A DNA stretch of 64,000 bases from an uncultured Thalassolituus sp. (GCF_950066645.1 NZ_CATMFB010000001.1:248001-312000), one strand, 5' to 3'. Positions 2,172 to 10,047 are shown, counted from the stretch's first letter. Notes: generated by a model not told the origin, from the letters alone. Numbers and translations are program-made.

Positions 2172-3062
2172 GTGGTAAAGGATGCCTCTAATACTGACAC
2201 GCTGAGTTACGGTGATATTTCAGTAGATCAATTGCTAGAAAAAGCTAGGTTGGTTGCTCTTCAAGCACAAGACCCCTATAAGCAAATCGTAGAGGTTTAC
2301 TACATAGCCAGATATTTTATGAGTTGGTTCGAGTCTCGAGAGGCGCCTGAAGTGCCTATTCAAGTCTGGAATGAATATCGCATGGCTATGGATCACTTTA
2401 TGAGGTCTTTAACTTCTGAAGCAGCCGAAAACGAGGCTCAGCTCAGGAGAATGGATGCGCACCTGCAGCGAGCAGCATTAGATGTTCTTAAACTGCTCTT
2501 CACTTCAATGTCCGACAGTTGTAGCGAGTTTTTCAAAGGCTATTCTGCTACGGCGATTAACACTTTAGAATCTGGTGAGTTTCGTACCAAATCTAAGAAG
2601 CTTCGAGATCGTGCGCAATTACAATACCATGATGCAAAGTTGATGGACTCGGAGTCTAAGGCTAGTGGCAGCTTTGAAGAGTATTCGCTGCAAGATAGGT
2701 GTCCAGGTATAGCAGCTTATGCAGAAGCGGTGATGCGGATGTATGAGTGTGAAGGGTACTTAAAAGTTAAAGAAAGACACTTAGCGACCTTAGAGACCGA
2801 ATTGCAAAGGTCTAAAAGTGAAGGTTTGTTTCGGGGACGTGCAGGTTTTTGGGCTTACAGCTTAGGTTTTACAGTATTTGGAGCGTTTATACCAAGTCTG
2901 GTGGGCTCTGTTGTCTCAAGCGTTGAGCGTATTGATACAGTGACTCAAGCTGAAGCTATCGAGACTCTCCCCCCCACCGCCGCGGGGATACGGGTCGAAG
3001 CTATTCCAGATATGGATGCCAAATTAGAGTCCATTCCGAATGGCGCCATTACTGAAAAATAA
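2172..3062 (+). CDS. hypothetical protein, mostly helical with a C-terminal transmembrane segment
   Basis: 296 aa ORF with GTG start and upstream AAGGAAAG; hydrophobic segment GFWAYSLGFTVFGAFIPSLVGSVV near the C-terminus. Confidence 0.6.
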   Translation: MVKDASNTDTLSYGDISVDQLLEKARLVALQAQDPYKQIVEVYYIARYFMSWFESREAPEVPIQVWNEYRMAMDHFMRSLTSEAAENEAQLRRMDAHLQRAALDVLKLLFTSMSDSCSEFFKGYSATAINTLESGEFRTKSKKLRDRAQLQYHDAKLMDSESKASGSFEEYSLQDRCPGIAAYAEAVMRMYECEGYLKVKERHLATLETELQRSKSEGLFRGRAGFWAYSLGFTVFGAFIPSLVGSVVSSVERIDTVTQAEAIETLPPTAAGIRVEAIPDMDAKLESIPNGAITEK

Positions 3063-3087
3063 AGGGCTTGTTGAAAATGGGGGTACT

Positions 3088-3135
3088 TAATAGGACACCT
3101 ACCTAATAGGATGATTACCTAATAGGACACCCACC
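3088..3135. repeat. three tandem 16-bp units (TAATAGGACACCTACC / TAATAGGATGATTACC / TAATAGGACACCCACC) at left end of RAYT element
   Basis: Direct reading: exact period 16 at 3088, 3104 and 3120; inverted relative to GTGGGTGTCC motifs at the right end. Confidence 0.85.
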
Positions 3136-3209
3136 TTAGTACCTTCGCCTGATTGTTCGATAATTGACCTATGCTAGGCTGGCGGTTCATTCGTTGAAGG
3201 ATCAACGCC

Positions 3210-4205
3210 ATGCCTAAGCCTCGAAATCAACAGATCTCCCTGGACGCCACCCCTTACTATCATTGTATTTCCCGTTGTGTCCGGCGGGCCTTCCTGTGCG
3301 GTACAGATACAACGACAGGGCAGAGCTACGAACACCGTCGTGGCTGGCTCGAAGAAAAGTTACTGGCTCTTCCACAGACGTTTGCTATCAATATCGCAGC
3401 CTATGCGATTATGAGTAACCACTACCATGTCGTTCTGTATATCGACAAAAAGCAGGCTGCTGAATGGACGGATATCGAGGTGGTTGAGCGTTGGCATTCT
3501 CTGTTCAAGGGTAATCTCTTTTCTCAGAAATTTCTCAGAGGCGATACTCTCGATTCGGCGCAGCGGGCTCGTTTGCAGATGATCATAGAAGAGTGGCGCT
3601 CACGCTTATGCGATATCAGCTGGTTTATGCGGATTCTGAACGAAGCGATTGCCCGTGAAGCGAATCAGGAAGACCAGTGTTCAGGCCGATTCTGGGAAGG
3701 TCGTTTTAAGTCTCAAGCTTTGTTGGATGATGCCGCTCTGGCGGCTTGCATGGCCTATGTTGATCTGAATCCAGTGCGCGCTCAAATGGCAGACACGCCT
3801 GAGCAGTCGGATCATACGTCCATAAAGAAACGGGCAGAAAAGGCTAAGAGAGCGACGCAGGCAAATCATCCAAACCAACAGGTGAAAGAGCTGCATCCTT
3901 TTGTAGGAAATCCTCGCCAGAATTTGCCGAAGGGGATTCAGATGCGTCTGACGGATTATCTGGAATTGGTTGACTGGACCGGGCGGGTTCTCAGAGACGA
4001 TAAGCGTGGAGCGATTTCACAGAACGCTGAGGATATTCTCACGAGGCTTGGAGTGGATGATTCGCAGTGGCTGACAATGGCATCTGAGTTTGAACAGTGC
4101 TTTAAGACGTTCGCAGGAAATGAACAACGACTCCGCAGTGCCTGTGATGCGATGAACTACCAAAGAGCTTCAGGGTTAGGTGACTGCCGTAGGCTGCTTG
4201 GATAA
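3210..4205 (+). CDS. REP-associated tyrosine transposase-like (Y1_Tnp / IS200-like) protein
   Basis: 331 aa; YYHCISRCVRRAFLCG N-terminus, HUH-type motif MSNHYHVVL, tyrosine region YVDLNPVRA. Confidence 0.9.
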   Translation: MPKPRNQQISLDATPYYHCISRCVRRAFLCGTDTTTGQSYEHRRGWLEEKLLALPQTFAINIAAYAIMSNHYHVVLYIDKKQAAEWTDIEVVERWHSLFKGNLFSQKFLRGDTLDSAQRARLQMIIEEWRSRLCDISWFMRILNEAIAREANQEDQCSGRFWEGRFKSQALLDDAALAACMAYVDLNPVRAQMADTPEQSDHTSIKKRAEKAKRATQANHPNQQVKELHPFVGNPRQNLPKGIQMRLTDYLELVDWTGRVLRDDKRGAISQNAEDILTRLGVDDSQWLTMASEFEQCFKTFAGNEQRLRSACDAMNYQRASGLGDCRRLLG

Positions 4206-4395
4206 CTCTTCACATAATTTTCATTTGTGACCAGACCAGCGAATGCTGGCTTTCTTCGTGCCCTGAAGATCATTAACCTCGCTGATTCTCAATAACGAAC
4301 TATTCAGTTCGTAGAATTTATGACGTTGGAATTGAAGTTATATCGTTTTGGAACTGCTACTGATGTTTTCCCTAGAGTGGGTGTCCGTTTAGTAT
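4159..4395 (+). repeat. 237-bp 3'-end repeat of the RAYT element, copy 1
   Basis: Begins ACCAAAGAGCTTCAGGG and ends GTGTCCGTTTAGTAT; includes the last codons of the transposase (QRASGLGDCRRLLG*). Confidence 0.9.
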
Positions 4396-4461
4396 GTTTT
4401 GGAACTGCTACTGAGATATTAGCTAGAGTGCTAGTAGCTAGGGTGGGTGTCCATGTAGTAC

Positions 4462-4698
4462 ACCAAAGAGCTTCAGGGTTAGGTGACTGCCGTAAACTGC
4501 TTGGATAACTCTTCACACAATTGTTACTTGTGACCAGGCCAGCGGATGCTGGCTTTCTCCGTACCCGAACCTTCATCAATTCCGCTGATTCTCAATGACG
4601 AACTATTCAGTTCGTAGAATTTATGGCGTTGGAATTGAAGTTATATCGTTTTGGAACTGCTACTAATGTTTTCCCTAGAGTGGGTGTCCGTTTAGTAT
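4462..4698 (+). repeat. 237-bp 3'-end repeat of the RAYT element, copy 2 (about 90% identical to copy 1 by manual alignment)
   Basis: Same start and end motifs and same length; encodes QRASGLGDCRKLLG* with no transposase body attached. Confidence 0.9.
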
Positions 4699-4755
4699 CC
4701 GCTAGAGTGGGTGTCCGTTTAGTATCCGTTTAGTAGGTATACGTAAAGGCAAGGT

Positions 4756-5577
4756 ATGGAAACAGATATCAAAAAAGTGTGGCGGGCATTGAGGCCAACG
4801 GTCAAAGATGGTTTTACCTTCAATGAAACAAAGGATGTAATAGCGGCGGCTGCATTGCCAGTGGAAGAGTTAGCGCATCTACAGCAGAAATCGTTGCCCG
4901 CAAAAGGAGCCTCAAAGGGAGAACTCCTTGATGCACTTGATGGATTAATTGCTAGAGAACCTGATTCAGGGAAGGCAATACAGAGCCTTATAGCCGCAAT
5001 GCTTGAGCAGAAAAGCCATCTTGAATCCCGTATATCTGATTGTGCAGAAAGGTTTGGATGGAAAGTAGTTGATGGACAGCTTCGACCTTTGGACTTTCAA
5101 GTGGAGGGCGCTGTCCACGATTTTTCTGAAGAGGTGAAGGTTCTGCTGAAGAATGCATATCGGAGGTTTGGCGAAGGTGACTATTCAGGAGCAATGACGG
5201 CCATATGCAGTGCACTTGATACTGTAACAAACCACCTCTATGCAGTTCACAATCTTGGAAATCCTCATGATGACTCATATCAGCAAAGGGTATCTCGTTC
5301 TTTCTCGGTATTAGAGGATGTATATCGCCAGAGATTCAGCCAGGTGACGGATGATAGCGCTGAAGTTAATAAGCTATGGCAAAACTATCGAGGTTCTATT
5401 AATCAAGCTGCTTACGTTATGGGATCGTTTCGAAGAAATGCGAGTGATGTACATGGTGTCGCTGAATGTCCTCCAGAGTTGATTAGACATGCCATTGATA
5501 GTGGTACTTTTATTATTAGAAGTATAACGTCAGAAACTACGAAGAACGTACAACAAGAAGATCCACTCGATTTTTAA
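4756..5577 (+). CDS. abortive infection (Abi_C/HEPN-like) protein
   Basis: 273 aa; C-terminal ...FRRNASDVHGVAECPPELIRHAIDSGTFIIRSI resembles the Abi_C/AbiJ C-terminus and contains an R-N-x4-H HEPN RNase-type motif. Confidence 0.65.
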   Translation: METDIKKVWRALRPTVKDGFTFNETKDVIAAAALPVEELAHLQQKSLPAKGASKGELLDALDGLIAREPDSGKAIQSLIAAMLEQKSHLESRISDCAERFGWKVVDGQLRPLDFQVEGAVHDFSEEVKVLLKNAYRRFGEGDYSGAMTAICSALDTVTNHLYAVHNLGNPHDDSYQQRVSRSFSVLEDVYRQRFSQVTDDSAEVNKLWQNYRGSINQAAYVMGSFRRNASDVHGVAECPPELIRHAIDSGTFIIRSITSETTKNVQQEDPLDF

Positions 5578-5594
5578 ACGCTGGCGCGTTAAAA
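5572..5594 (+). other. hairpin TTTTAA(A)CGC-TGGC-GCGTTAAAA overlapping the stop codon of the Abi_C ORF
   Basis: 9-bp stem with one bulged A and a 4-nt loop, read directly. Confidence 0.6.
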
Positions 5595-5609
5595 GCGAGT
5601 GACCTTGAC

Positions 5610-5616
5610 GTTATGC
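5610..5616 (+). other. putative attC R' core site GTTATGC (5' boundary of the AAA-TOPRIM cassette)
   Basis: GTTATGCAA at 5610 is the exact reverse complement of TTGCATAAC at the cassette's 3' end (7155-7163). Confidence 0.6.
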
Positions 5617-5662
5617 AAGTGGCAGTAATACAGGTCGTATAGGATAAATAAGAAGATTTGAT

Positions 5663-7162
5663 ATGGCAGTCTCACAGCAAGTAATACATTCGATGAAAGT
5701 TCAAAATTTAAAGAATCTTATCGATCTAGAAATTTCTTTTGATTCTTCACCAATAACTGCGATTCTTGGGCCAAATGGAAATGGAAAATCCACGATATTA
5801 CATGCTTTAGCATGCGCGTTTTCACCCAGTCAAGAAGGTGAGAACTATAAGTTTAGTTCGTTCTTTTTGCCAAACACAGATGCGCTATGGAATGGCAGTG
5901 AGCTGAGTATCGTACACAGTTATAGGGATGGTCAAAACGAACATACGAACGTCACAAGAGAATATAAAAAGACTGAGGTTCGGTGGACACCTAGATACGC
6001 GAACAGGCCTCTTAGAGATGTATTCTATATTGGAATTGACAAGTGTGTACCAATGATTGAGGCAGAGAAAAAGCAGGCAAAGATCAACTACTCTACTCAA
6101 GTTGTAAATGAAGAAATTATAAATACTATTCTAGAAAAAGCATCAATCGTCCTGAATAGAAGATATGCCAAATATCATGTTCATGAAGCTTCCGGCAAGA
6201 AGTTTATCGGTGTTGAGGTGGATGGGCTTCGTTACTCTGCATTGAGTATGAGTGCGGGCGAACAAAAAGTGTTCTATATACTCGAAAAAGTCTTTAGAGC
6301 AAAAAAGTACTCACTGATTCTCATTGATGAGCTTGATCTACTTCTCCATGACCAAGCAATGAAGAAACTGATCGAGGTTGCTCTTGAAAGAGCTGCGGAT
6401 AAAAATTTACAAGTGATATTTACAACACACAGAGAAAGTGTTTTAGAGCTAGAAGATAAAATCAACATTAGACATATAGTTTGTCGGCCTGGGAAAACCC
6501 TATGTTTCAATGAAACGAAACCCGACGCTATAAATAGATTAACAGGCGTCCAGCCTCGTCCTATAGAGGTCTTTGTCGAAGACGACTTGGCTTCAACTAT
6601 AGTAAAAAAAGTTGCTTCTCGGCTTAGGCTTGCTAAATATGTCACTACAAGCAGGTATGGGGCCGCTATAAATTGTTTCACAGCTGTTAGCGGGCTATTG
6701 CTGGGTGGTGAGCCGTGTGAAAACTCTCTCTTCATGTTAGATGGTGATGTGTATCGATCTGACGATGAAAAAAGAACATCAATTAATAGAGTCCTGACTG
6801 GGCACGATGATAATGTTATTGCCGCACGAGCAACTGCACTGTCGGCAATTAAACAATTTTCCCTGCCTGTAGATACCAAGCCTGAGAAATATCTTCACTC
6901 TCTAATTATTGCTATTGATGAGACAGAAGATGAAGAAAAAAACGAGATCATTGAAGCTGCTAAGGAAATAGTTGTTGTTGATGAAGATCATAAATATATA
7001 AATGACCTAATACATAGGTTGGGCTGGGAGCGAGCAACTGGTCTTTCAAAAATAATTGATTTAGTTGCTTCGACAGATGAGTGGCCTGGCTATACAAATG
7101 ACTTGAGTGAATGGCTTGAATCAAAATCAGATGCTCTACGTGAAGATAGTCAAGTTGCATAA
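5663..7162 (+). CDS. AAA ATPase with C-terminal TOPRIM-like domain (OLD-like or fused PARIS-like), putative anti-phage defence protein
   Basis: 499 aa; Walker A GPNGNGKST, SMSAGEQ signature, Walker B LILIDELDLLLHD, TTHRES; TOPRIM-like IEVFVEDDLAS and LFMLDGDVY. Confidence 0.8.
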   Translation: MAVSQQVIHSMKVQNLKNLIDLEISFDSSPITAILGPNGNGKSTILHALACAFSPSQEGENYKFSSFFLPNTDALWNGSELSIVHSYRDGQNEHTNVTREYKKTEVRWTPRYANRPLRDVFYIGIDKCVPMIEAEKKQAKINYSTQVVNEEIINTILEKASIVLNRRYAKYHVHEASGKKFIGVEVDGLRYSALSMSAGEQKVFYILEKVFRAKKYSLILIDELDLLLHDQAMKKLIEVALERAADKNLQVIFTTHRESVLELEDKINIRHIVCRPGKTLCFNETKPDAINRLTGVQPRPIEVFVEDDLASTIVKKVASRLRLAKYVTTSRYGAAINCFTAVSGLLLGGEPCENSLFMLDGDVYRSDDEKRTSINRVLTGHDDNVIAARATALSAIKQFSLPVDTKPEKYLHSLIIAIDETEDEEKNEIIEAAKEIVVVDEDHKYINDLIHRLGWERATGLSKIIDLVASTDEWPGYTNDLSEWLESKSDALREDSQVA

Positions 7163-7207
7163 CAAACGCATGTTGTCGGACTGGTTTTCCGCTGCGCTCC
7201 AAACCAG
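7157..7207 (+). other. attC-like site, 5' half plus apex; 3' arm interrupted by IS3 insertion
   Basis: R'' GCATAAC (7157-7163) overlapping the TAA stop, then AAACGCATGTTGTCGGACTGGTTT...AAACCAGC apical stem, ending at the IS left end. Confidence 0.65.
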
Positions 7208-7262
7208 CTGATCTGTAACCACTTTTATGGACAGTTTTTTCTGTTCATTAAAAAGGTTCAGT

Positions 7263-7632
7263 GTGGGACAAACAAAAAAGAGAAACTATGATAGCTATAC
7301 GTTAGCTTTTAAACTTCAAGCCGTTAAGTTAGCGAATCACCCTGAAGTTAGGTCGAAGGATGTCGCTGAGTCTTTAGGCATACATCCAGTGATGCTATAC
7401 CGTTGGAAAATGGAACATCGGCGCGGTGAATTCAAAGAAAATAAGCATATAAAAAAAGAAGTTCCATCGCCTAAACGATCGCCCTGATCGTACTGATCCT
7501 GTCAAAGAGGCAGAGGAGAAGTTGGCTGCGGCGGAAAGGCGCATCAAGAAGCTCGAACGCGAACTCGAGAATCGTAATGACGAGATCGAACTTCTAAAAA
7601 AGGCCGAACGGTTCTTCCAGCGAAAAAAATAG
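7263..7632 (+). pseudogene. IS3-family transposase OrfA, frameshifted
   Basis: N-terminal HTH (RNYDSYTLAFKLQAVKLANHP...RWKMEHRRGEFKENK) ends early at 7487; the coiled-coil part (NDRPDRTDPVKEAEEKLAAAERRIKKLERELENRNDEIELLKKAERFFQRKK*) is in another frame, break near the A7 run at 7451-7457. Confidence 0.8.
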
Positions 7633-8485
7633 ATTTATACGAGCTTTTTGAGAAGAACCGTAAGGGACGTGACGTACGGCAGTTGTGTAAGCTGCTTGGC
7701 GTTTCGAGAAGCGGATTCTACGCCTGGTGTTCCCGAGGTGATAGCGAACGGCAGCGATACGATGGTGAGCTGAAAGAAGCCATTGTAGAGCTGCATCAAG
7801 GCTTCAGAAGAGCTTACGGAGCCCGTCGGATACACCAGCAATTACGTCGTAATGGCTTTGATTGTAGTGTCCGTAGAGTGACACGACTAATGAAAGAAGT
7901 GGGTGTAGAGGCCTCCAGTAAAGGGCTTTATACTTGGAATCCGGGACGGCATGAGTTCTATAGCTCAACTGGTAACCTACTGGCAGAGGATGATCGCGCA
8001 ACGTCTGAGGGGCAACAATGGGCCGGGGACTTCACCTATATACGTATAGGCTCAGGATGGCTCAATCACGCTATCGTTGTCGATCTCTTTAGTCGGCGAG
8101 TGGTAGGCTGGTCATTCAGTCGTAAGCGGAACAGTGAGCTTACGAAAAGCGCTTTGAGAATGGCCCTATCACGTGAAAGACCATCTGTTGGATGTATCTT
8201 TCATTCGGACCAGGAATTGAATATGCAGCTCATGAATATCGTGATTTAGTTGAGTCTGCGAATATGCGACGAAGTATGAGCCGGAAGGCGACGCCATTGG
8301 ATAATGCAATCGTTGAATCCTTCTTTCATACTCCCAAAACTGAGCTGGTTCATCAGCAGAAGTTTGAAAGTGATATAGAAGCTGGTGCAAGAGTGGTGGA
8401 GTTTATCGAGTATTATAACCGTGAGAGACTTCAATCTGGAATCGGGTGTGAAAGCCCTGAAAATTATTCAAGGGCGTGTGCCTGA
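7626..8485 (+). pseudogene. IS3-family transposase OrfB (DDE integrase core), frameshifted
   Basis: CKLLGVSRSGFYAW...GDFTYIRIG...HSDQ then a frame change to GIEYAAHEYRDLVESANMRRSMSRKATPLDNAIVESFFHTPKTELV; consistent with loss of one G in CCAGG at about 8212-8214. Confidence 0.85.
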
Positions 8486-8522
8486 AGTGTCCACGAAAGT
8501 GGTAGCAGATCACGGTGGTCGG

Positions 8523-9413
8523 ATGACAACGTTATACATAGTAGGCAACGGGTTCGATCTATGGCACGGGTTGCCCACTAGCTATGGCGAGTTCAATGCG
8601 TTTGCAGAAGAAGCGTTGAGTGAATTCGAGAGTTACTACTCATCCGATTTTTCTGTTCAAGGCCCCTGGTGTGATTTCGAGAACACGCTTGGTAAGTTTG
8701 ATTGGAAAGCTTTTTATGATGATCACAACCACATCGATGTGTCTTCAGGGAGTTTCAGGCCTAGCTTCATTTACTGCTTAGAAGACGACTTGGCCGAACA
8801 AACCAACCAACATGTCGAAAGGATTAGGGAATGCTTTCAAGAGTGGGTGTCGGAGATTGACGTCTCACTAGCTGAAAGGAAGTTGGTGTTTGCCGAGAAC
8901 GCTAAATTCCTTACTTTCAACTACACCTCCACCCTCGAAATCGTATACGCCGTTCCAGATGGACAGGTTTTGCATATCCACGGGAAGGCCGACACGTATG
9001 AAGAGCTGATCTTTGGCCACGCCGAGACAATCGAAGAAGAACCTGAATTTGACGAGTACGGTGAGAGCACGCGCACGCCATTTTCGGATGCCGAGGGAGC
9101 AGCTAGGTATCCCTTCTATGCTTTGCAAAAGCCTGTTGAAGCAATTCTGAAAAATCATAAGGCTTTTTTCGATGCTTTAGAGCACGTGGATAAGATCATT
9201 GTGGTTGGTCATTCCCTCAATAAAGTTGACCTGCCATACTTCAAACAAGTCGCCGAGAAGGCGCCAACGGCGAGCTGGACTGTTTGTTCTTTCAAGTCTG
9301 AGGAAGGAGTTAATCATGCTCAAGCATTGCTCCAGTGTGGTGTCACTCCGGCACAAATTCGTCTCTGTGGTTATCCCGAACTTGAAGGCGGGCTTAGTCG
9401 CAGGCGCACCTAA
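8523..9413 (+). CDS. abiH: AbiH-family abortive infection protein
   Basis: MTTLYIVGNGFDLWHGLPTSYGEF, FLTFNYTSTLE, HIHGKADTYEELIFGH and IVVGHSLNKVDLPYF are AbiH-family motifs; ATG lies 10 bp after the IS end. Confidence 0.85.
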   Translation: MTTLYIVGNGFDLWHGLPTSYGEFNAFAEEALSEFESYYSSDFSVQGPWCDFENTLGKFDWKAFYDDHNHIDVSSGSFRPSFIYCLEDDLAEQTNQHVERIRECFQEWVSEIDVSLAERKLVFAENAKFLTFNYTSTLEIVYAVPDGQVLHIHGKADTYEELIFGHAETIEEEPEFDEYGESTRTPFSDAEGAARYPFYALQKPVEAILKNHKAFFDALEHVDKIIVVGHSLNKVDLPYFKQVAEKAPTASWTVCSFKSEEGVNHAQALLQCGVTPAQIRLCGYPELEGGLSRRRT

Positions 9414-9506
9414 CAACACGTTGCAGGCGACGTTTGACCCGCTGCCCATTTATTCTGTCGCAAAAGCGGCCATCGCCTCAAACGCACCTGAACGTGGGCG
9501 TTATGA
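9408..9506 (+). other. attC recombination site (integron cassette-type), apparently complete
   Basis: R'' ACCTAAC ... R' GTTATGA; arms CACGTTGCAGG(CG)ACGTTTGA and TCAAACGCACCTGAACGTG are complementary apart from an unpaired G; overlaps the abiH stop codon. Confidence 0.8.
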
Positions 9507-9524
9507 GTTTTGGGCATGCAGATA

Positions 9525-9752
9525 ATGTTTTCTGAAACTGGTTGCGATTTTTGCCGAAAGTATTGGACCCATCCGTTCTTGGAAAATCGAGAGAAAATAC
9601 TGAAGCTATTAGTAGACCGCAATAGTGAAAGGCAGGCGAGCCTCTATCAATGCAATAAGTGCCGTGCATACTGGGAAGATCCGAACGGGGCATATCCGAT
9701 GGTGCTAACGAATGAAGAAGTTGAGAAATGCTATGGGATCAAGAACTCATAA
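9525..9752 (+). CDS. small zinc-ribbon-like cassette protein (two CxxC motifs)
   Basis: 75 aa MFSETGCDFCRKYW...YQCNKCRAYWEDPNG; TAA stop overlaps TCATAAC (R''), complementary to the cassette start TTATGAG. Confidence 0.6.
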   Translation: MFSETGCDFCRKYWTHPFLENREKILKLLVDRNSERQASLYQCNKCRAYWEDPNGAYPMVLTNEEVEKCYGIKNS

Positions 9753-9780
9753 CAATCCGCTGAATTCGTTGTGGCCACAA
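9747..9780 (+). other. truncated attC-like site (R'' TCATAAC and palindrome TTGTGGCCACAA, no 3' arm found)
   Basis: CTCATAAC is the exact complement of GTTATGAG at 9500-9507; no matching 3' half downstream. Confidence 0.5.
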
Positions 9781-9825
9781 GAAAAGCGGGGCCCTGAGGG
9801 TCAGTAAAAAAAAGAGGAATTATCT

Positions 9826-10047
9826 ATGGAATGTGCATGTAACTGTGGTGGAACTACCGCGGGTGGCGATTTTCTTCCTGGTCATGATCAGCGGCTAAGA
9901 GCTGATCTGGAGCGGCGTGTTGGTGGCATCATTAACTTGCGTATGCTGGTCGAGGCAGCAGAACACTTCGTAGAGGGCAGTGTTGGTAGTTATCAGTTTA
10001 ACGGCATGGTTAAAGAGCTATTAAGAGAGCCCAACCGCCGGCCATAA
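9826..10047 (+). CDS. small hypothetical protein (C-C-CGG...FLPGHDQRLR family)
   Basis: 73 aa MECACNCGGTTAGGDFLPGHDQRLRADLERRVGG; upstream AAAGAGG ribosome-binding-like sequence. Confidence 0.6.
   Translation: MECACNCGGTTAGGDFLPGHDQRLRADLERRVGGIINLRMLVEAAEHFVEGSVGSYQFNGMVKELLREPNRRP

Follow-up and report, generated by a model that had tools for sequence, protein, structure and literature searches.

Evidence for a small, decaying integron cassette array with defence-type genes downstream of trkH in Thalassolituus, a genus with scattered attI platforms

Between trkH and a DUF6160 gene, the chromosome of an uncultured Thalassolituus carries a run of genes, an AAA-TOPRIM gene and an AbiH gene among them, whose stop codons lie within boxes resembling those of integron attC sites. 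The question raised by this locus is whether the genes are integron cassettes and, if they are, how they came to stand here with no integrase beside them. An attC cluster without an integron integrase is termed a CALIN (IntegronFinder 2.0, PMC9024848), and the initial annotation of this DNA had read the block in that way. The window, meaning the whole analysed stretch of 64 kb, has been compared with the genomes of the genus (G000, the source genome, to G008) and with 392 genomes of the order. The block is very probably a small, decaying, off-platform array of four cassettes (a CALIN), with the following features.

4756..9793, + strand: CALIN block of four cassettes between trkH and the DUF6160 gene
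3084..4740, + strand: left neighbour, non-cassette; REP-associated Y1 transposase (3210-4205) with repeat blocks D1-D5
4756..5577, + strand: gene of cassette 1, 273-aa protein; cassette start lost, REP repeats abut
5548..5616, + strand: attC of cassette 1, R'' GTACAAC, R' GTTATGC; overlaps the 3' end of gene 4756-5577
5611..7209, + strand: cassette 2, TTATGC up to the IS3 insertion; first 9 nt complementary to the cassette's R''
5663..7162, + strand: AAA ATPase plus TOPRIM (OLD-like) protein of 499 aa, from Pfam and PADLOC HEC-04
7157..7208, + strand: left half of the cassette 2 attC, with R'' GCATAAC, L'' and upper stem; right half lost to IS3
7209..8512, + strand: IS3-family element, ends TGATCTG...CAGATCA; transposase frames broken
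8523..9413, + strand: cassette 3, AbiH (296 aa); cassette start lost beside the IS
9408..9506, + strand: attC between AbiH and the zinc-ribbon gene; complete, canonical; recovered by models R1 and R2 and by folding
9501..9793, + strand: cassette 4, zinc-ribbon-like protein of 75-80 aa (ORF 9510/9525-9752)
9747..9793, + strand: left half of the cassette 4 attC; end of the array

The attC sites were searched with two covariance models of our own. The training set of model R1 consisted of 20 plasmid-borne class 1 attC sites and contained nothing from Thalassolituus; model R2 was built from attC sites of other Thalassolituus arrays, of G327 and of a Vibrio plasmid, with the window sites excluded. 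The single full-length attC-like hairpin that had been reported between AbiH and the next ORF (9408-9506) is recognised by both models and has canonical attC geometry: R'' ACCTAAC, 5 nt and L'' GTTGCAGG with one extrahelical G on one side, L' CCTGAAC, 6 nt and R' GTTATGA on the other. In a geometry scan it attains 14.0, the best score in the window (runner-up 12.5); known class 1 attC sites mostly reach 12-15.5 under the same rule, and shuffled sequences yield 0.02 such sites per 8.6 kb (one strand) or 0.125 per 64 kb (both strands). R1 matches nothing else in the 64 kb and places both ends of the site, R'' and R', exactly (23.4 bits, E 0.0015); R2 scores it at 30.1 bits (E 6.8e-5), these E-values being approximate owing to a short calibration. 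The bottom strand of an attC is the strand used by IntI, and here it folds into a hairpin of -24.1 kcal/mol (z -3.6 against shuffles). With R'', L'', L' and R', the extrahelical base and the bottom-strand fold all present, 9408-9506 is classed as a canonical attC, and its recombination by IntI is predicted.

The second complete site, 5548-5616, is weak and was recovered only with the filters off, at 19.1 bits with unfiltered R2 (approximate E 0.0054 for 8.8 kb searched) and 13.6 bits with R1; its bottom-strand hairpin has a z of -3.8 against shuffles. The initial annotation had counted three cassettes, all of which stand, but had overlooked this site and its gene (4756-5577), which make a fourth. 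An Rfam scan of the window returned zero matches.

The remaining two attC sites are left halves, identified through homology, and all cassette genes of the block lie in one orientation. The TAA stops at 7160, 9411 and 9750 are indeed embedded in RYYYAAC-like boxes (GCATAAC 7157-7163, ACCTAAC 9408-9414 and TCATAAC 9747-9753), and the match of a cassette start to its own R'' box is exact for cassette 2 (GTTATGCAA 5610-5618 / TTGCATAAC 7155-7163) and, over 8 nt, for cassette 4 (GTTATGAG 9500-9507 / CTCATAAC 9746-9753). The three ORFs concerned had been called consecutive; however, the AAA and AbiH genes are separated by the broken IS3-family element. Directly 3' of the AAA gene stands GCATAACAAACGCATGTTGTCGGACTGGTTTTCCGCTGCGCTCCAAACCAGC, and the attC half found there matches an attC in the intI-linked array of G006 (L051) at 98% identity over 50 nt and, at 96% over 49 nt, an attC belonging to an attI platform of the source genome (contig C14), the identity ending exactly at the edge of the IS3-family element (7209). 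The half site of cassette 4 matches an attC of G002 (L094; 91% identity over 47 nt) and one on contig C9 of the source genome (88% identity); the homology ceases at 9793, and the sequence from 9794 onwards is unrelated.

The 273-aa protein of cassette 1 matches no Pfam or NCBIfam family. Its gene, like those of the other cassettes, is very patchy in the order (3/392 genomes), and a relative in G184 (32%) is flanked by attC sites, with TTCTAAC...GTTAGGT downstream and an attC remnant carrying an IS110-like insertion upstream. At this left edge of the array no cassette start is recognisable and REP repeats adjoin; the Y1 transposase beyond them matches REP_Tyr_transpos at 42 bits, under the cut-off.

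The product of cassette 2 combines an AAA ATPase with a P-loop and, after it, a TOPRIM-like region, as in HEC-04 and OLD-like nucleases. Matches to AAA_15 (E 5e-16), AAA_21 (E 4e-15) and HEC-04, the best PADLOC model (E 3e-41), span residues 6-377; GPNGNGKST, LIDEL and LDGD motifs are visible in the sequence, and PDB gave weak PtuA/OLD matches. The gene occurs in three of the 392 genomes of the order. A 68% relative in G327, which belongs to another family, is bounded by an upstream attC R' GTTATGC and a downstream attC R'' GCATAAC, the same boundary boxes as those of the window cassette.

AbiH is assigned through Pfam PF14253 (188 bits, cut-off 30.9, residues 4-254), and its gene occurs in this genome alone among the 392 of the order. 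A 52% relative lies on the Vibrio tubiashii plasmid pFP31 in a VCR-type cassette, GTTAGGTGC ... GCACCTAAC, with R'' ACCTAAC as in the window. Since the DNA to the right of the IS3 element starts 10 bp ahead of the AbiH start codon, the start of this cassette is missing, presumably removed by an IS-associated deletion. GTTATAC at the AbiH start was considered as an attC R' box and rejected, as it codes for the LYIVGN motif and the IS is not followed by any left half. The element itself retains HTH_21 and rve domains in its broken frames and has no target duplication at its flanks (AGC / CGG).

For the zinc-ribbon protein of cassette 4 no relative was found elsewhere in the 392 genomes of the order or in plasmids. 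The defence-type cargo previously proposed for the block holds for two genes, AAA-TOPRIM and AbiH, which match defence models, but not for the 273-aa and zinc-ribbon proteins, neither of which matches a defence family convincingly. Judged by their families, the OLD-like AAA-TOPRIM nuclease and AbiH are phage-defence types and probably independent single-gene systems. With sites scored by covariance models, with the block missing from every related genome, which goes against a conserved single unit, and with relatives of three of the genes found in attC cassettes elsewhere, the earlier CALIN reading was right, subject to the corrections given here.

As had been stated before, the window contains no match to an integron integrase. 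A complete integron would have intI beside attI and the array, and neither intI nor an attI leader (the segment described below) is present in the window. Because it has no attI leader, the block is an off-platform array. An intI above the cut-off occurs in six of the nine genomes of the genus. The genome-wide search returned a single match in the source genome, on contig C11, broken by an in-frame TGA and missing profile positions 175-259; a bigger attC cluster lies on contig C9. The array had been described as mobile or trapped, and of these trapped fits better, since the sole intI of the genome is broken and truncation has affected two of the four attC sites.

In the source genome the interval 3' of trkH measures 8.6 kb. 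Its counterpart spans about 0.3 kb (G006), 1.0 kb (G001), 2.2 kb (both G004 and G005) or 7.4 kb (G007), and in G002 and G003 a SulP gene comes next after trkH. The block is absent from this place in all the relatives (G001-G007), which have other genes or nothing there; a comparison of these junctions had been suggested for finding empty sites, and it yielded no precise one among the relatives. A CALIN as a conserved feature of trkH is rejected: the intervals of the relatives lack the block, and the VapBC insertion in G004 and G005 has no attC. The site downstream of trkH is variable in general and is not a cassette site, the fetched trkH intervals of relatives having given no attC match.

A search with R2 revealed attC clusters distant from intI in all nine genomes of the genus. 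Many of these arrays are headed by a segment of about 310 bp that corresponds to the intI-attI interval of G001, G004 and G005. A LexA-like box just 5' of the intI ribosome site marks the start of this leader; its other end is CTAACAAGCTG^TTA, where the first cassette begins. At E <= 1e-4 the copies in G000 to G008 number 4, 6, 5, 1, 7, 8, 4, 2 and 0, respectively; at most one per genome adjoins intI (none in the source genome), and up to seven per genome do not. No intI sequence was found at 17 fetched dispersed leader loci, nor was an inverted copy of the left end of the leader, as in a transposon, found at the far end of the arrays.

The leaders mark exact breakpoints between species. Contigs C14 (source genome), C26 (G004) and C9 (G005) share one such locus, where the alignment runs through about 1 kb of flank upstream of the leader and through the leader itself up to the attI crossover (G^TTA; points 2353, 2298 and 2243 in L145, L146 reversed and L147 reversed); the arrays of about 3.4, 2.0 and 2.6 kb differ, and the downstream flanks realign from 5781, 4354 and 4874. 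The same break at the leader end is seen in a second set of loci (G001 C14, G004 C1 at 268.6 kb, G005 C27 and G007 C205) and in a third (G004 C1 at 1.0 kb, G001 C19, G005 C36, G006 C43 and G000 C13). The complete chromosome of G414, from a neighbouring genus, carries eight leaders, one adjoining an intI that shares 87% identity with the G004 gene and seven without an adjoining intI, with attC sites at four of these seven.

It is likely, on the strength of the leaders, their attC arrays, the missing intI and the exact attI breakpoints at orthologous loci, that Thalassolituus and the neighbouring genus possess a distributed integron. One intI of the SOS type would act in trans on several scattered attI sites, each an intI-less leader of about 310 bp heading its own array, with turnover between species, and the window block would be its off-platform spill-over, in a genome whose integrase has since died. 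A single IntI may serve all platforms, and the leader may spread as one unit whose left end is defined. That each platform lost its intI separately is the less likely alternative, as three or four species share the intI-less state at the same loci. The platforms of the source genome should all be frozen now, because its intI is broken.

For the block itself, the cassettes would have come both from the pool of the genus itself and from broader marine exchange, and IntI would have recombined them here, at an attC or at an off-target genomic site, while the integrase of the lineage was active. The gene intI would then have broken, the IS3 insertion and neighbouring deletions would have destroyed the AAA attC and the AbiH cassette start, and a truncation would have taken the right half of the last attC. 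AbiH keeps an intact downstream attC, and the array would be immobile unless an outside IntI arrived. The cassettes, attC sites, broken intI, IS and truncations are read directly from the DNA; the insertion route and the order of events are our proposal.

Alternatively, a complete integron (intI, attI and array) might once have stood at trkH and lost its head by deletion, the block being its tail, with no off-target insertion involved. Such an origin, suggested by the truncated left edge with its abutting REP repeats and by the attI-headed arrays at other loci of the source genome, is nevertheless unlikely, given that neither an attI leader nor intI lies near trkH in the window and that the trkH intervals of relatives gave no attC match and, in the genus search, no leader match. 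It is also improbable that the array was copied or moved from an attI-headed platform through an IS or homologous recombination, and not built in place by IntI. The resemblance of the two half sites to attC sites on C14 and C9 speaks for such a transfer, as does the presence of the IS3 family both in the block and on contig C8, where a 170-bp copy, 96% identical, lies inside an attC-like sequence, whereas the cassette genes themselves were not found elsewhere in the source genome. A defence island delivered by a transposon, IS or REP element, with the attC-like sequences as chance palindromes, would suit the Y1/REP transposase at the left, the IS3 element inside and the unrelated genes in the same interval of relatives, but is already contradicted by the attC geometry, the model scores, the 91-98% identity to attC sites of other arrays and the cassette-borne relatives of three genes, and can hardly be entertained.

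The routes described for CALINs are off-target IntI insertion, intI loss and rearrangement (PMC8618304). The block resembles known CALINs in its two complete attC sites, the lack of a nearby intI and its one-direction cassette genes, and differs from them in being small and decayed, with half sites at two of four attC positions and an IS3 element in one. Off-target insertion by IntI at attG sites (Loot 2024, as cited in PMC12444791) would be a likely route for cassettes into a site that is neither attI nor attC. Defence cassettes occur in sedentary and mobile integrons (Darracq 2025, Kieffer 2025 and Getz 2025, reviewed in PMC12409362). The block likewise carries small, single-gene, defence-type cargo in cassettes, but it is not part of any attI platform, and the intI of its genome is broken. 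As a CALIN with defence-type cargo it belongs to an already known kind, a further example of such genes travelling as cassettes and left stranded once the integrase decays.

The platform arrangement of the genus is the less ordinary part. No paper on Thalassolituus integrons, on several attI sites per genome or trans-served platforms, or on AbiH integron cassettes was found in a literature search that left subscription journals mostly outside. A close likeness is to the CALINs of Xanthomonas (PMC12444791), where a genome likewise holds several arrays off the platform and some of these occupy conserved loci; in contrast, many Thalassolituus arrays have an attI leader copy at their head, a feature not mentioned in the consulted passages of that paper. 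The genus keeps several attI platforms at fixed chromosomal loci, and it is exactly at the attI crossover point that the arrays of the species begin to differ. If all of them are served by one integrase, integron function would not be bound to one locus alone, and some of the arrays at present classed as CALINs would be working capture sites.

Cassette arrays in the own genome and at the orthologous loci L137-L149 are headed by dispersed attI leaders, that is, by copies of the interval of about 310 bp between intI and attI, located there without intI. In the own genome the following have been identified:

L145:2046-2353, attI leader without intI, contig C14
L150:2069-2346, attI leader without intI, contig C8
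L151:2045-2329, attI leader without intI, contig C4
L153:2209-2368, attI leader without intI, contig C13

At the shared loci (L137-L149), the divergence of the arrays between species begins exactly at the attI G^TTA. In the neighbouring genus, a complete chromosome (G414) carries eight leader copies (L154-L161); one adjoins an intact-looking intI and the remaining seven lack intI, with attC sites present at four of these seven. All leaders have a sharp left end in common, AATGTAAAGA, which adjoins a LexA-like box (L105:3105, L101:2747 and L103:1224, among others). Given this shared boundary in the sequences, the leader looks as if it spreads as one unit; a far end matching the sharp left end was searched for and none was found.

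The intI of G005, another genome of the genus, is represented by its first 131 positions only (L011 / L053, G005:C31), and integrase activity may thus have been lost here too, which would make it the second such case in the genus. In G004 and G005, an additional gene and a VapBC pair lie immediately downstream of trkH, and no attC was found at this insertion (L039:1700-2950; L040).

Twice in the own genome, attC sequence is interrupted by the same IS3-family element, which possibly prefers attC (window 7209-8512 and L102:5143-5312). The attC beside the relative of the AAA gene is interrupted by an apparent group II intron 5' end (L077:3005-3100), and that beside the 273-aa relative by an apparent IS110-type element (L081, reverse complement 1-1480).

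Two array-flanking products in the window, a 296-aa protein (2172-3062) and a 73-aa cysteine-containing ORF (9826-10047), gave no family match. A REP-associated Y1 transposase with repeat blocks (237-bp and shorter) adjoins the cassette array (window 3084-4740), and similar Y1 genes are located close to attC arrays in G002, also of this genus. The contig C13 platform contains a cassette, L153:3218-3808, whose protein product is GmrSD_N / NsnA-like; this is a further gene of defence type among the arrays of the own genome.
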